Shown here: in pieces, positions 15,420 to 19,179 of the stretch | Numbering within the stretch: position 1 is the stretch's first letter | Layout: every line of letters starts with the position of its first letter | Assembly (NCBI GenBank): GCA_013138735.1 | Contig: WTCE01000095.1 | Location: 1 to 36,989 of the forward strand | From: Crocinitomix sp. | Lineage (GTDB): Bacteria > Bacteroidota > Bacteroidia > Flavobacteriales_D > Crocinitomicaceae | Direction of reading: 5' to 3' | DNA: 36,989 nt | The notes under the pieces: generated by a model | What the model was told of the DNA's origin: nothing | The model's database searches: none | The model's input: only the letters and a program-made list of their open reading frames with translations | Translations under genes and position numbers: made by a program

Positions 15420-16958
15420 CTACCCCACTAACAAGTTACGCATATTCACTTTTTCATGAATAATACCATGTAAATCTGCAATTGCTACACGCTCTTGTTT
15501 CATTGTATCTCTATCTCGAATAGTCACAGTCTGATCTATCAATGTTTCTTGATCAACTGTTACCGCAAATGGAGTTCCAATAGCATCTTGTCTTCTATAA
15601 CGTCTACCAATATTGTCCTTTTCGTCATACTGGCAGTTAAAATCCAATTTTAGGCTATCGATAATCTCTCTAGCGACCTCTGGCATTCCATCCTTTTTCA
15701 TCAATGGCAAAACAGCCACTTTATAAGGTGCCAATGCTGGAGGAATAGCCATTACTTTTCTAGTTGTCCCATCCTCCAAAGTTTCTTCTCTTAAAGATTG
15801 CGACAATACCGCCAAGAACATACGATCCAATCCAATGGATGTTTCTACCACATACGGAACGTAAGATTCATTCAACTCAGGATCGAAATAACGTAATTTT
15901 TTACCTGAATGTGCCTCATGTTGTTTTAAATCAAAATCCGTTCTCGAATGAATTCCTTCCAGCTCTTTAAAACCCATTGGAAAATCAAATTCAATATCAG
16001 CCGCTGCGTTCGCATAGTGTGCCATCTTAATATGATCGTGAAAACGGTATGCATTGTCTTCAAAACCTAAAGCTTTATGCCATTTGATGCGGTAATCCTT
16101 CCAATACTCATACCACTTCATTTCCTCACCCGGACGTACAAAAAATTGCATTTCCATTTGTTCAAACTCGCGCATTCTAAAAATAAACTGTCTTGCAACA
16201 ATTTCGTTTCTAAACGCTTTACCAATCTGTGCAATTCCAAAAGGAATCTTCATTCTTCCAGATTTTTGTACATTCAAAAAGTTTACAAAAATACCTTGCG
16301 CCGTTTCTGGCCTAAGATAGATCTTGGCTGACTCTCCAGACACTGATCCCAATTCAGTTGAAAACATCAAGTTGAATTGTTTAACGTCTGTCCAATTTTT
16401 TGATCCGCTTATAGGACAAGCAATTGCCAAGTCCTCAATTAACTGTTTTAAATCGTCCAGCTTTTCATTCTCCAAGGCGTCGCGCATGCGATCCTCAATA
16501 CCAGTGATTTCTGCTGCACGTCTTAAAACATTCGGATTTGTTGCTCTAAATTCTGCTTCGTTAAAATCGTCACCAAATCTTTTGAATCCTTTGGCAACAT
16601 CCTTATTGATCTTTCCACGAATCTTTTCAATGTGATCTTCAATTAGTACATCCGCCCTATATCTTTTCTTTGAATCTTTATTATCAATCAACGGATCATT
16701 AAAGGCATCAACATGTCCCGAAGCCTTCCAAACCTGAGGAGCCATAAATATTGCGGCATCTAATCCCACTATATTTTCGTTCATTTGAACCATAGATTTC
16801 CACCAATAATTTTTGATGTTATTCTTTAATTCAGCTCCCAATTGTCCATAATCGTAGGTCGCACTTAATCCATCATAAATTTCACTTGACGGAAATACAA
16901 AACCATACTCTTTAGCATGTCCAATTATATCTTTCAACTTATCTTCTTGCGTAGCCAT
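15420..16958 (-). CDS. glyQS: Glycine--tRNA ligase, single-chain dimeric type
   Basis: This 512-residue class II synthetase attaches glycine to tRNA-Gly in the cytoplasm. It is the homodimeric, eukaryote/archaeon-like type (glyQS, also named glyS) rather than the two-subunit bacterial type. Visible class II elements are motif 2 with FRNE at 249-252, the downstream FEQMEMQFF, and motif 3 with ETSIGLDR. The C-terminal anticodon-binding domain begins around ALAPYKVAVLPLM and includes RRYRRQDAIGTPFAVTVD. Length agrees with the family, so it looks intact. The upstream region holds a TAnnTTTG element at 17039-17046 on this strand but no sign of a tRNA-sensing leader. It is the clearest housekeeping gene of the window. 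Confidence 0.97.
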   Translation of the reverse strand: MATQEDKLKDIIGHAKEYGFVFPSSEIYDGLSATYDYGQLGAELKNNIKNYWWKSMVQMNENIVGLDAAIFMAPQVWKASGHVDAFNDPLIDNKDSKKRYRADVLIEDHIEKIRGKINKDVAKGFKRFGDDFNEAEFRATNPNVLRRAAEITGIEDRMRDALENEKLDDLKQLIEDLAIACPISGSKNWTDVKQFNLMFSTELGSVSGESAKIYLRPETAQGIFVNFLNVQKSGRMKIPFGIAQIGKAFRNEIVARQFIFRMREFEQMEMQFFVRPGEEMKWYEYWKDYRIKWHKALGFEDNAYRFHDHIKMAHYANAAADIEFDFPMGFKELEGIHSRTDFDLKQHEAHSGKKLRYFDPELNESYVPYVVETSIGLDRMFLAVLSQSLREETLEDGTTRKVMAIPPALAPYKVAVLPLMKKDGMPEVAREIIDSLKLDFNCQYDEKDNIGRRYRRQDAIGTPFAVTVDQETLIDQTVTIRDRDTMKQERVAIADLHGIIHEKVNMRNLLVG

Positions 16959-17038
16959 TTCTTTTCTAGATTCAAGAACAAAGACGAAAGATTAAAGACT
17001 CCGCTTTGTCAATTTTTTATAAAAAATAATTTTCGCTG

Positions 17039-17046
17039 CAAATATA
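17039..17046 (-). promoter_or_regulatory. Bacteroidota -7 promoter element for glyQS
   Basis: On the minus strand this reads TATATTTG, an exact match to TAnnTTTG, about 80 bases before the glyQS ATG. No clear -33 TTG is seen at the right distance. Confidence 0.45.
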
Positions 17047-17137
17047 AACAATAGCGATAGAAATTTCGCGTTAACTTAATAAGACCGCTTTTTTTTTGGC
17101 ATAATCTTCGCATGTCATCTGATATCAAATATTATTA

Positions 17138-17145
17138 TATATTTG
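17138..17145 (+). promoter_or_regulatory. Bacteroidota -7 promoter element for the phhA leader
   Basis: TATATTTG is an exact TAnnTTTG match. A start of transcription 5-7 bases downstream (about 17150-17152) would put the leader peptide ATG at 17157 almost at the 5' end of the transcript. The -33 region has no good TTG. Confidence 0.5.
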
Positions 17146-17156
17146 TTTTTAACAAA

Positions 17157-17237
17157 ATGAACATTAAACACTTCAATAGCAATTATTATTATTCGACTTC
17201 AAACTACGAAGCCGGAGAAAGCATGGCAGAGCATTGA
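17157..17237 (+). CDS. Tyrosine-rich leader peptide of the phhA attenuator
   Basis: This 26-codon open frame starts with ATG at 17157 and stops with TGA at 17235. Codons 10-12 are three consecutive TAT (Tyr) codons at 17184-17192, and codon 17 is TAC at 17205; one Phe codon lies at position 6. It lies between a promoter-like element and an intrinsic terminator in front of the gene that makes tyrosine from phenylalanine. This is the arrangement of an amino-acid leader peptide in transcription attenuation: ribosomes stall at the Tyr codons when charged tRNA-Tyr is scarce. It is too short to be a normal gene and I see no signal peptide. The stop codon lies in the loop of a small hairpin (AGAGC 17228-17232 with GCTCT 17239-17243). 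Confidence 0.75.
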   Translation: MNIKHFNSNYYYSTSNYEAGESMAEH

Positions 17238-17298
17238 CGCTCTCGAAATGCATATAACTTATATAAACCGGTTTCCTTTTGGAGATCGGTTTTTTTTT
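17197..17298 (+). promoter_or_regulatory. Tyrosine attenuator: protector, antiterminator and terminator stems
   Basis: Three mutually exclusive pairings can be drawn. CTTC 17197-17200 with GAAG 17208-17211 is a weak protector hairpin. GAAGCCGG 17208-17215 with CCGGTTTC 17268-17275 is an 8-pair antiterminator (one G-T). AAACCGGTTTCC 17265-17276 with 17281-17292 is the terminator. A ribosome stalled on the Tyr codons at 17184-17192 would cover the CTTC arm and free 17208-17215 to trap the 5' arm of the terminator, allowing transcription into phhA. With plentiful Tyr-tRNA the ribosome runs on and the terminator should form. The 4-pair protector is the weakest element of the model. Confidence 0.65.
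17265..17298 (+). terminator. Intrinsic terminator in the phhA leader
   Basis: A 12-pair stem (two G-T pairs) of AAACCGGTTTCC at 17265-17276 and its partner at 17281-17292 closes a TTTT loop and runs into T's up to 17298. It lies 36 bases before the phhA ATG, upstream of the gene and in its orientation, so it acts as a premature terminator. Confidence 0.85.
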
Positions 17299-17333
17299 AT
17301 GCCAATTCAAAAGGAATCCAAAAACTACAGCAC

Positions 17334-18059
17334 ATGAAACAAATCATGCAAAATTACACCCCAACCGACCATTTGGTTTGGAAAACACTTTTTGAACGAC
17401 AACGCTTGAACTTAGAAACAAAGGGCAGTGAGATTTACTTGAACTGTTTGGACAGAATGGAACCTGTTATTAACGCCAATTCCGTTCCCTCTTTTGACGC
17501 CATAAATGAATGGTTTAAAACTTCAACCGAATGGGATATTGTTGTGGTGCCCGGATTGATTCCTGTCGAAGACTTCTTTGATTTATTGGCCAATAAACAA
17601 TTTTGTTCCTCTACTTGGTTGCGCACAATGGAGCAATTGGATTATTTAGAAGAACCGGATATGTTCCATGATACTTTTGGTCACATTCCGCTTTTAGCCG
17701 ATCCTACTTTTTCTGAATTTGCACACCGCTTTGGTCAATTAGGCCAATCCTTTAAAGGAGACACGTTAGTGTTGAATCAATTGCAACGATTGTACTGGTT
17801 CACCATTGAATTTGGTTTAATTCAAGAGCAAGGCATTGGAAAAGTTTACGGTGCAGGTATTATTTCTTCATTTGGTGAAACGAATCGGGTAGCCGCAAAA
17901 AATTGTAATATTCTACCTTTTGACATTAATACCGTTTTGAAAAAGGTATTTCAAAATGATGTTTTGCAAGAGGATTACTTTTTAATCGAGTCCTTGGAAG
18001 AATTGAACGAAGCTTTGCTACATGCAAGTGTTAAATTGGCTCGGAAAATTGAATATTAA
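17334..18059 (+). CDS. phhA: Phenylalanine 4-monooxygenase (phenylalanine hydroxylase)
   Basis: This 241-residue monomeric-type enzyme hydroxylates phenylalanine to tyrosine using O2, tetrahydropterin and non-heme iron in the cytoplasm. The iron ligands are all visible: His112 and His117 in FHDTFGHIPLL and Glu159 in YWFTIEFG. It lacks the N-terminal ACT regulatory domain of animal enzymes, as bacterial members do. The ATG at 17334 is used; a second Met follows at codon 5. Expression is probably controlled by the Tyr-codon attenuator upstream. The pterin-recycling partner phhB lies about 5 kb downstream at 23311 on the same strand. The stop codon (18057-18059) overlaps the stop of the convergent lipoprotein gene (18056-18058). 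Confidence 0.96.
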   Translation: MKQIMQNYTPTDHLVWKTLFERQRLNLETKGSEIYLNCLDRMEPVINANSVPSFDAINEWFKTSTEWDIVVVPGLIPVEDFFDLLANKQFCSSTWLRTMEQLDYLEEPDMFHDTFGHIPLLADPTFSEFAHRFGQLGQSFKGDTLVLNQLQRLYWFTIEFGLIQEQGIGKVYGAGIISSFGETNRVAAKNCNILPFDINTVLKKVFQNDVLQEDYFLIESLEELNEALLHASVKLARKIEY

Positions 18060-18610
18060 TACCTGAGATCGAATCGACCATCAGTAATCTCTAAGGTTGT
18101 TCCGGTTGGGCAATCAGAATTTATAAGGGTCATTTCAAAAGTGCCTGATATGATATCTAACTCTTCGTCGAGGTGGGTAATATTGATATTACCAAAATTT
18201 GACTGGTCGTGGTAAAAAGTACACATACTTCCATACCCATTATACCCGTCATAAGTATCTGTTTCCGAGTACATACTATATTCACCAGTTCCATCAGTTA
18301 TGTATGCTCTAAACCGTACATCCTCAAACTTATCCTCTTTTGTTTCACGAGTACCTTGTGTTCGAAACAGTCTTGTTTCTTCATTAAATCCTGCCCAGAC
18401 TGCTGCTACACCTCCAAAAGCAAAATCAACATGTGGTACAAATGGCTCTCCATTAATATAGCAGCCAAAAGTATTTTTACCTTCTTGAGTGGCCTCAGGA
18501 AGTTGAACAACAGGTTCTGGATCTGGTTCCATAGATGGTTTATTGCAGGAAAACATGAAGAATAGGATTCCCAAAAAGTTAACTAAGGATAAGTGTTTAT
18601 TTCCGTTCAT
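18056..18610 (-). CDS. Lipoprotein, second copy of a tandem pair
   Basis: This 184-residue protein has a signal peptide and lipobox (FMFSC), so it is an envelope lipoprotein. A Pro/Glu-rich spacer after the lipid anchor leads to the motif LPEATQEGKNTFGCYINGEPFVP, shared by many Bacteroidota lipoproteins (DUF6252-like, from memory). The rest is beta-rich and ends in ITDGRFDLRY. It is closely similar over its whole length to the gene at 18625-19179, which precedes it by only 14 bases, so the pair is one operon from tandem duplication. The function is unknown. Its stop codon overlaps that of phhA. Confidence 0.85.
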   Translation of the reverse strand: MNGNKHLSLVNFLGILFFMFSCNKPSMEPDPEPVVQLPEATQEGKNTFGCYINGEPFVPHVDFAFGGVAAVWAGFNEETRLFRTQGTRETKEDKFEDVRFRAYITDGTGEYSMYSETDTYDGYNGYGSMCTFYHDQSNFGNINITHLDEELDIISGTFEMTLINSDCPTGTTLEITDGRFDLRY

Positions 18611-18624
18611 TCTTTATTCTGGGA

Positions 18625-19179
18625 TTAATATCTGAGGTCGAATCGACCATCAGTGATTTCCATTATTGTATTTGTCGCACAATCAGGATTTACTAAAGTG
18701 ATTTCAAAAGTGCCTGATACAATGTCTAACGCTTCATCAAGGTGGGTGATAGTAACTAGGCCATAATTCAGAGTATCATGATAATAAGAGCAAATAGTGC
18801 CGTATCCTACATATCCACGATATTCATCTGTCACAGAATGCATATTATATTCACCAATACTATCAGTAATGTATAGCTTAAAGCGTACATCTTCAAATTT
18901 ATCGTCAAACGTTTCGCGTGTTCCCTGTGTACTGAAAAGTCGTGTTTCTTCGTTAAAACCCGCCCATATAGCAATTGGCCCACCAATCGTAAAATCTACA
19001 CGTGGTACAAAAGGCTCCCCATTGATATAACACCCAAAAGTGTTTTTTCCCTCTTGAGTTGCTTCAGGAAGTTGCTCAACAGGATCAGGTTTTGGTTCGA
19101 TTGGCGGTTTATTGCAAGCAAACATGACGGATACAATCCCCAATAGGCCTAATAAATATATGTTGAATTTTCTATTCAT
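18625..19179 (-). CDS. Lipoprotein, first copy of a tandem pair
   Basis: This 184-residue protein has a signal peptide and lipobox (VMFAC). It carries the same LPEATQEGKNTFGC motif and GEPFVP segment, and the same terminal ITDGRFDLRY, as its downstream neighbour; the two have identical length and align without obvious gaps. Differences concentrate in the middle (for example AVWAGF versus AIWAGF, and the loop before EFxxT). The start at 19179 gives a standard lipoprotein signal peptide. A divergent 167-base region separates it from the hydrolase gene at 19347; I see no clear promoter in it. The function is unknown. Confidence 0.85.
   Translation of the reverse strand: MNRKFNIYLLGLLGIVSVMFACNKPPIEPKPDPVEQLPEATQEGKNTFGCYINGEPFVPRVDFTIGGPIAIWAGFNEETRLFSTQGTRETFDDKFEDVRFKLYITDSIGEYNMHSVTDEYRGYVGYGTICSYYHDTLNYGLVTITHLDEALDIVSGTFEITLVNPDCATNTIMEITDGRFDLRY

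Follow-up and report, generated by a model that had tools for sequence, protein, structure and literature searches.

Why should the gene for a phenylalanine hydroxylase, an enzyme that in bacteria is usually taken as catabolic, stand behind a leader peptide rich in tyrosine codons? The question is raised by phhA of Crocinitomix sp., a member of the Bacteroidota, within a stretch of 36,989 nucleotides (contig WTCE01000095.1) that was analysed as a whole and that we call the window. An original prediction, made from the letters of this DNA, had proposed a Tyr-codon leader and attenuator in front of the gene. As we argue below, phhA is very probably controlled by a ribosome-mediated transcription attenuator that would depend on charged tRNA-Tyr. 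The encoded protein matched PF00351 over cut-off (E 8e-42), had bacterial Phe-4-hydroxylases as its best PDB matches (E 9e-53), and was 91% identical to the PhhA of an uncultured Crocinitomix MAG, its nearest named relative. Because its best NCBIfam equivalogs, both Phe 4-monooxygenase, scored 238.8 and 237.5 and thus below their cut-offs of 247 and 264.75, we infer the substrate, and the protein is most likely a phenylalanine 4-hydroxylase. Features of the locus are collected in Table 1.

Table 1. The phhA locus, with positions counted along the window.
Feature	Position	Strand	Remarks
Class-II tRNA synthetase gene	15420-16958	minus	divergent from phhA
Spacer			375 bp, between the class-II tRNA synthetase gene and phhA
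Promoter-like box, Bacteroidota-type -7 (TAnnTTTG)	17138..17145	+	TATATTTG; 11 nt before leader ATG; from sequence
Leader peptide ORF	17157..17237	+	MNIKHFNSNYYYSTSNYEAGESMAEH and stop; ATG 17157, stop 17235-17237; from sequence; Tyr-run leader ORFs also before phhA in relatives
Control codons	17184..17192	+	three consecutive TAT; from sequence
Region 1	17192..17200	+	pairs with region 2; 1:2 hairpin, -5.9 kcal/mol
Region 2	17208..17216	+	GAAGCCGGA; pairs with region 1 or, via 17208-17215, with region 3
Region 3	17268..17275	+	CCGGTTTC; within the 5' arm of the terminator; 2:3 = antiterminator
Intrinsic terminator (3:4)	17265..17298	+	12-bp stem 17265-17276 / 17281-17292, then U-run; -16.2 kcal/mol
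phhA	17334..18059	+	biopterin-dependent aromatic amino acid hydroxylase, 241 aa; PF00351, NCBIfam and PDB matches
Two adjoining paralogues, Riean_0653 family (NF052634)	18056-18610; 18625-19179	minus	family without stated function

Re-reading of the sequence bore out the predicted leader of 26 codons plus stop, with its three TAT codons and one further Tyr codon, TAC, at 17205-17207, and the coordinates given for these elements were correct. The predicted intrinsic terminator, consisting of a stem at 17265-17292 and a U-run, was likewise found before phhA, and the region from 17150 to 17333, which includes the stretch that the original prediction had proposed to fold, was more stable than each of 200 shuffles (z = -3.3; 0/200 equally stable). 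Both of the complementarities that had been claimed for the segment at 17208-17215 were also present, as GAAGCCGG can form 8 bp, one of them G-U, with region 3, and CTTC (17197-17200) pairs with GAAG. Box, leader, mutually exclusive hairpins, and terminator thus all stand between 17138 and 17333, where a complete attenuation layout had been described. An in-frame ATG at 17112 would extend the leader ORF and add a second TAT run (17130-17138); this longer ORF begins upstream of the promoter-like box and is for that reason probably untranscribed.

Two of these elements could have arisen by themselves, as AT-rich DNA is likely to contain runs of TAT and a terminator alone is not unusual here (1 terminator-like site was found in 16500-18500 against 1.4 expected). 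We therefore considered whether an AT-rich spacer containing a TAT repeat might simply precede an unrelated terminator. We scored 169 non-redundant phhA upstream regions, with 23 duplicates and 4 regions of short upstream sequence set aside, using a fixed detector with three requirements: the terminator had to end no farther than 135 nt from phhA; an ORF, 8-45 codons long, had to end no more than 60 nt before the terminator or overlap it by no more than 5 nt; and at least three of five adjacent codons had to encode one amino acid. A Tyr leader with a terminator was detected in 67 of the 169 regions and in none of 845 Markov-randomised copies. Terminators of any kind were present in 76 regions, including these 67, and in 20 of the randomised copies; Leu, the next commonest residue run under the same detector, accounted for 16. 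The 67 leaders share ancestry and are not independent, and they encode 64 distinct peptides that differ outside the Tyr run. Each contains 3-6 Tyr residues (at least 3 by selection), which make up 20.8% of leader residues, and the Tyr codons are a mixture of TAT and TAC (208:50) rather than a simple repeat. Judged from sequence, it is the combination of elements and its conservation that stand above chance at the phhA locus. Given the empty randomised set, the mixed codons, and pairings that are conserved although their letters change (see below), we give the chance explanation next to no weight.

The detector was failed by 102 of the 169 loci, and the switch is therefore not general for phhA, although six of the failing loci (L005, L020, L022, L026, L075, and L092) had a leader that was recognised by eye or lay farther upstream. 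At L022 and L026 (genus code as Fluviicola chungangensis), a Tyr leader and terminator were located ~240-400 nt upstream of phhA, with ~240-280 nt of apparently non-coding DNA between terminator and gene. Separately, 12 of the 67 leaders (e.g. L006, L008, L010, L012, and L161-L164) contained a Trp codon, often adjoining the Tyr run, which could reflect double Tyr/Trp sensing or chance.

How are these leaders distributed? We placed them on a quick maximum-likelihood tree of 117 PhhA proteins, in which 6 leader labels were assigned by eye, 5 of them in the clade of the window. This clade (48 rows, support 91, not starred) comprises Crocinitomicaceae, Psychroflexus, Planktosalinus, Flavobacterium gelidilacus, and MAGs, and 46 of its 48 members carried the leader. 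For one of the two exceptions, L071, the upstream sequence is just 173 nt long; the other, L052, a MAG from a close relative within Psychroflexus, was a true miss in which no Tyr leader was found. The comparison with relatives that the original prediction had proposed thus found both Tyr codons and terminator conserved. Across the whole tree, 64 rows were labelled as having a leader, and the labels required 13 state changes compared to a shuffled mean of 38.9. Leaders also occurred outside the clade in some Saprospiraceae and some Lewinella loci, in a Vicingaceae locus, and in several others; by detector and tree, they were absent from Balneolaceae loci, from most of the distant PhhA proteins of other families, and from some Lewinella- and Saprospiraceae-type loci (L093, L098, L106). 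Two records with outlying names, L075 (Actinomyces viscosus MAG) and L081 (Glaciecola amylolytica), paired a phhA of Flavobacteriales type with a Tyr leader, that of L075 seen by eye, and are probably mislabelled.

The position of the promoter-like box bears on how such leaders might be read. TAnnTTTG, which we take to be the Bacteroidota-type -7 promoter consensus, was found 3-18 nt (mode 4) 5' of a leader start in 50 of the 67 relatives, and anywhere in 87 of 1340 randomised 75-nt stretches. Initiation led by a Shine-Dalgarno sequence is rare in Bacteroidota. The closeness of the box to the leader starts suggests that the transcript carrying the phhA leader is itself almost leaderless.

Multiple comparisons support alternative pairing of region 2. 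First, when the part of the window RNA before 17205 was masked and region 4 was absent, the remainder folded into the 2:3 antiterminator (-22.2 kcal/mol), and with region 1 masked and region 4 absent this pairing was part of the minimum-energy structure in 65 of 67 leaders. At full length, the terminator form of the window RNA (-29.5 kcal/mol) was more stable than a form with forced 2:3 pairing (-23.7 kcal/mol), and antitermination must therefore be kinetic. Second, the mean energy of the native 2:3 duplex over 67 leaders was -11.7 kcal/mol, compared to -6.8 kcal/mol for shuffled sequences and -9.1 kcal/mol when the partner was taken from another species (Wilcoxon p 1e-12 and 2e-10, respectively, both rough as the rows are related). 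The native duplex was better than the mean of its own swapped partners in 61 of the 67, and only 34 passed a single-leader shuffle test at p 0.05. The place of region 2 had itself been picked as the best duplex; as controls, shuffled spacers paired at that place in 189 of 1340 cases, and 859 of 1340 shuffled spacers, versus 67 of 67 native ones, could form 5 bp or more with the terminator arm at some position. Third, the 2:3 pairing was kept while its letters differed, being GAAGCCGG/CCGGTTTC in Crocinitomix, GAATCGG/CCGATTC in Psychroflexus, GAACTGAG/CTCGGTTC in L053, L057, and L076, and CGGGAAC/GTTCCCG in L012, so that the compensatory change sought between regions 2 and 3 was observed, as measured by duplex energies in the 67 leaders. 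Finally, the 1:2 hairpin was also conserved, with a mean of -5.0 kcal/mol compared to -2.2 kcal/mol for shuffles and with p 0.05 reached by 29 of the 67 leaders singly.

We relied upon duplex energies relative to shuffled and swapped partners, and not upon pair counts in an alignment, because region 2 shifts between species. In an alignment of 40 leaders, the terminator stem had two-sided changes at 6 of 10 pairs, and RNAalifold on this plain MAFFT alignment recovered the terminator only, with no 1:2 or 2:3 pairing. Sliding a 7-nt block along the same alignment revealed 2:3-like complementarity over several registers (best ~0.8 paired, background 0.40); for 1:2, no one register stood out clearly in the same slide (best 0.71, background 0.42).

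The spacing between codons and hairpins is also informative. A ribosome that stalled on the last Tyr codon would have its front edge near the start of region 2, as judged from the ribosome footprint. In the 67 leaders, this start followed the last Tyr codon by a median of 14 nt and by 11-17 nt in 55; in the window, 15 nt separate the last codon of the Tyr run (ending at 17192) from region 2 (17208), and when counted in this way 56 of the 67 fall within 11-17 nt. These distances are those expected if a ribosome stalled on the Tyr run were to mask region 1 and leave region 2 free. In 58 leaders, the stop codon is positioned to bring region 2 within the reach of a terminating ribosome. The stop lies outside the allowed reach in the other nine, namely the window, L002, L003, and six more. 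In the window and in L002 and L003, its two nearest relatives, the stop follows the start of region 2 by 27 nt, and the 1:2 hairpin, free to form once the ribosome has moved on, would therefore have to hold region 2 in these cases.

Related leaders also stand before other genes. We trained an RNA model on 40 of the 67 leaders and ran it, at a loose threshold, against 200 genomes of the family. Some match at E <=1 was found in 184 of the 200 genomes; most matches were weak, and the best 31 were at phhA. In the genome of the window, the phhA leader was the sole good match (E 8e-7; the next was 0.33). Beyond phhA, we took 20 places, four adjoining prephenate dehydratase genes and the next 16 by E-value (9e-6 to 7e-4). 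Thirteen were His-rich leaders, with HisG encoded behind all five tested by Pfam and the same protein start behind the others wherever the contig reached the gene. Three were Phe leaders before prephenate dehydratase, one was a leader encoding FFFNNN followed by an asnA gene and then prephenate dehydratase, and one was probably a phhA leader cut by a contig end; L257 and L258, which had a terminator and no leader, were set aside. Among these sequences, the leader codons name the product: His for hisG, Phe for prephenate dehydratase, Phe plus Asn for asnA-prephenate dehydratase, and Tyr for phhA. Adjacent Phe codons were found in none of the 67 phhA leaders, and 32 of them had at least one Phe. 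Tyr-rich leaders, the absence of FF from all 67, and the match between codon and product in the siblings together imply that the amino acid sensed would be the product of PhhA and not its substrate.

Several of these siblings have features of their own. The 13 His-rich leaders, all from Crocinitomicaceae (L243-L246 and L248-L256), have their own terminator sequence. The FFFNNN leader (L242, G017:C92:13500-15280, minus strand) encodes MKINNTYFFFNNNYMT, in which three Phe codons precede three Asn codons, and is possibly a double-specificity Phe/Asn attenuator. At L241:49-290, two units stand in tandem before prephenate dehydratase, the first encoding MNWMTNFCSFFYYSKTNRR and the second MRLTYWYFFFIARE, with a hairpin and T-run behind each of the two leaders, and L239 may resemble this arrangement.

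The variation among siblings also bears on whether the leader might instead be an arrest peptide that responds to free tyrosine, as TnaC does to free tryptophan, and not to the charging of tRNA-Tyr. A short peptide before a terminator would fit such a system too. However, codon identity varies from sibling to sibling, the phhA leader peptides differ outside the Tyr run, and adjacent codons for one amino acid combined with a 1:2/2:3/3:4 set constitute the classical attenuator design, all of which make an arrest peptide very unlikely.

What would tyrosine control of phhA achieve for this organism? A profile search of the host genome (97.5% complete) returned no match for PDH_N or PDH_C (TyrA), for prephenate dehydratase, or for HisG, and chorismate synthase was present. 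PDH_N was added to the search as PDH_C alone was insufficient for TyrA, missing the Bacteroides control as well. Because neither prephenate dehydrogenase nor prephenate dehydratase was matched, PhhA appears to be the only recognised route to tyrosine in the host. In the sample of 200 family genomes, TyrA (PDH_N) was over cut-off in 3 and present in 14 at E 0.001, prephenate dehydratase was found in 27, and 51 had a phhA match, a count in which fragments and a few proteins of the long form are included. phhA co-occurred with prephenate dehydratase (16/27 versus 35/173, Fisher p 6e-5; 14/27 versus 35/173, p 0.001, if two genomes whose sole match is the long form are scored as phhA-negative), in a set of genomes that share ancestry and of which many are incomplete. 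Prephenate dehydratase was present and TyrA not over cut-off in 24 genomes, of which 15 carried phhA, and phhA was present in 1 of the 3 TyrA genomes; 35 of the 51 phhA genomes had neither enzyme. This distribution is consistent with PhhA making tyrosine, which would come from home-made phenylalanine in some genomes and from scavenged phenylalanine in others, including the host. Gene-fitness evidence has been described that PAH serves tyrosine synthesis in another Bacteroidete, Echinicola vietnamensis (PMC7311316).

The same attenuator could also serve an enzyme engaged mainly in phenylalanine breakdown, with tyrosine sensing acting as an end-product brake that would merely keep this catabolic step from yielding surplus tyrosine. 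In Pseudomonas aeruginosa, PhhA is described as belonging to a catabolic operon (PMC1173090), and 4-hydroxyphenylpyruvate dioxygenase (4HPPD), which catalyses a later step of tyrosine breakdown, was present in 20 of 20 genomes searched, the host included; tyrosine breakdown may therefore coexist with synthesis, and a catabolic share of PhhA is possible. As the main role, however, breakdown seems unlikely. Induction by starvation is opposite in sign to what a catabolic inducer would do, no phhA leader carries adjacent Phe codons, the host is without a TyrA or prephenate dehydratase match, and phhA recurs in those 15 of 24 genomes that have prephenate dehydratase and no TyrA over cut-off. No HgmA_C match was found in the host either, a weak point in that just 1 of 14 control genomes is hit by this model.

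From the leader, its pairing potential, spacing, and conservation, the match of codons to product, and the missing genes, all of them read directly from DNA, we infer leader translation, termination, a response to tyrosine, and a physiological role for tyrosine-dependent attenuation of phhA as follows. Transcription would start just 5' of the leader ATG. When Tyr-tRNA is scarce, a ribosome would stall on the Tyr run and mask region 1, and region 2, just past the stalled ribosome, would pair with region 3 ahead of the synthesis of region 4; with 2:3 formed, no terminator would arise and phhA would be transcribed. When Tyr-tRNA is plentiful, the ribosome would proceed to the leader stop, where in most relatives it would cover region 2; in the window, with its more distant stop, region 2 would re-pair with region 1. 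With region 2 covered or held in the 1:2 hairpin, region 3 would pair with region 4, forming the terminator and turning phhA off. Tyrosine, the product of PhhA, would close the loop, and phenylalanine is apparently not made by the cell.

Among the classical attenuators of Proteobacteria are the trp, his, and pheA leaders; T-boxes, which bind tRNA directly, need no leader peptide, and the T-box of phhA in the Bacillus cereus group presumably has a Tyr specifier. The predicted phhA attenuator resembles the trp, his, and pheA leaders in its product-rich leader peptide, its 1:2/2:3/3:4 hairpins, and its intrinsic terminator before a biosynthetic gene, and differs from them in using tyrosine and phhA, in its Bacteroidota-type promoter-like box, and in a leader start near the presumed transcript start. 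The proposed mechanism is thus classical, and the phhA target with tyrosine sensing is the part for which no report was found. A tyrosine leader attenuator on phhA, of which the original prediction knew no earlier description, was not found in the literature searched, which largely excluded subscription papers. At gathering score, no Rfam family was matched in the window or in the loci of 10 relatives, and a search of 17080-17340 at E <=10 gave 12 weak, scattered, unrelated matches far below gathering scores, with no T-box among them.

The regulatory logic had also been called unusual, with tyrosine starvation switching on a gene generally seen as catabolic. The anabolic part of that argument agrees with the absence of TyrA and prephenate dehydratase matches from the host and with the role of PAH in E. 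vietnamensis. The logic itself is less unusual than claimed, because phhA of the B. cereus group, a gene for phenylalanine-4-hydroxylase, is described as T-box regulated (PMC2494555). The two systems would share the gene and premature-termination control by tRNA charging, but the T-box binds its tRNA directly whereas phhA here has a predicted translated-leader layout; the table of the same paper gives 0 T-boxes in 7 Bacteroidetes/Chlorobi genomes. T-box-mediated, tyrosine-dependent attenuation is also described for a tyrS-like gene of Enterococcus (PMC3315439). Leader-peptide systems were previously placed in Proteobacteria and Actinobacteria only, with Firmicutes added by a 2010 survey of premature terminators (PMC2965389). 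Within the same phylum, 'strong clues' of attenuation by the same general mechanism, with leader peptides before amino-acid biosynthesis operons, were reported in Flavobacterium psychrophilum, in a paper whose main text, however, has neither 'tyrosine' nor 'phenylalanine' (PMC9723704), and long 5'UTRs with leader-peptide-like short ORFs, e.g. at BT_4401, are described in Bacteroides thetaiotaomicron (PMC7366714). Putative attenuators have also been listed before tyrA operons, one of them in Bacteroidota (pheA>hisHb>aroA-aroQ>tyrA of B. thetaiotaomicron; PMC1173090, Table 7); these too are predicted to attenuate aromatic amino-acid genes, but their target is the TyrA route and not phenylalanine hydroxylase.

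If the attenuator operates as proposed, then the B. cereus group and Bacteroidota would come to one control decision by different mechanisms, the former through a T-box and the latter through a translated leader, and the sibling leaders for His, Phe, Asn, and Tyr would provide material for attenuation studies in the phylum. We lean slightly towards a broader reading, in which Bacteroidota would use one modular attenuator on nearly leaderless transcripts, with codons swapped to suit the product (His/hisG, Phe/pheA, Phe+Asn/asnA-pheA, Tyr/phhA), and in which the Tyr version would mark a large bacterial group that employs phenylalanine hydroxylase as its tyrosine maker, in many members, as in animals, fed only by outside phenylalanine. 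The Tyr leader would serve as a hint, readable from the genome, to whether a phenylalanine hydroxylase makes tyrosine or degrades phenylalanine.
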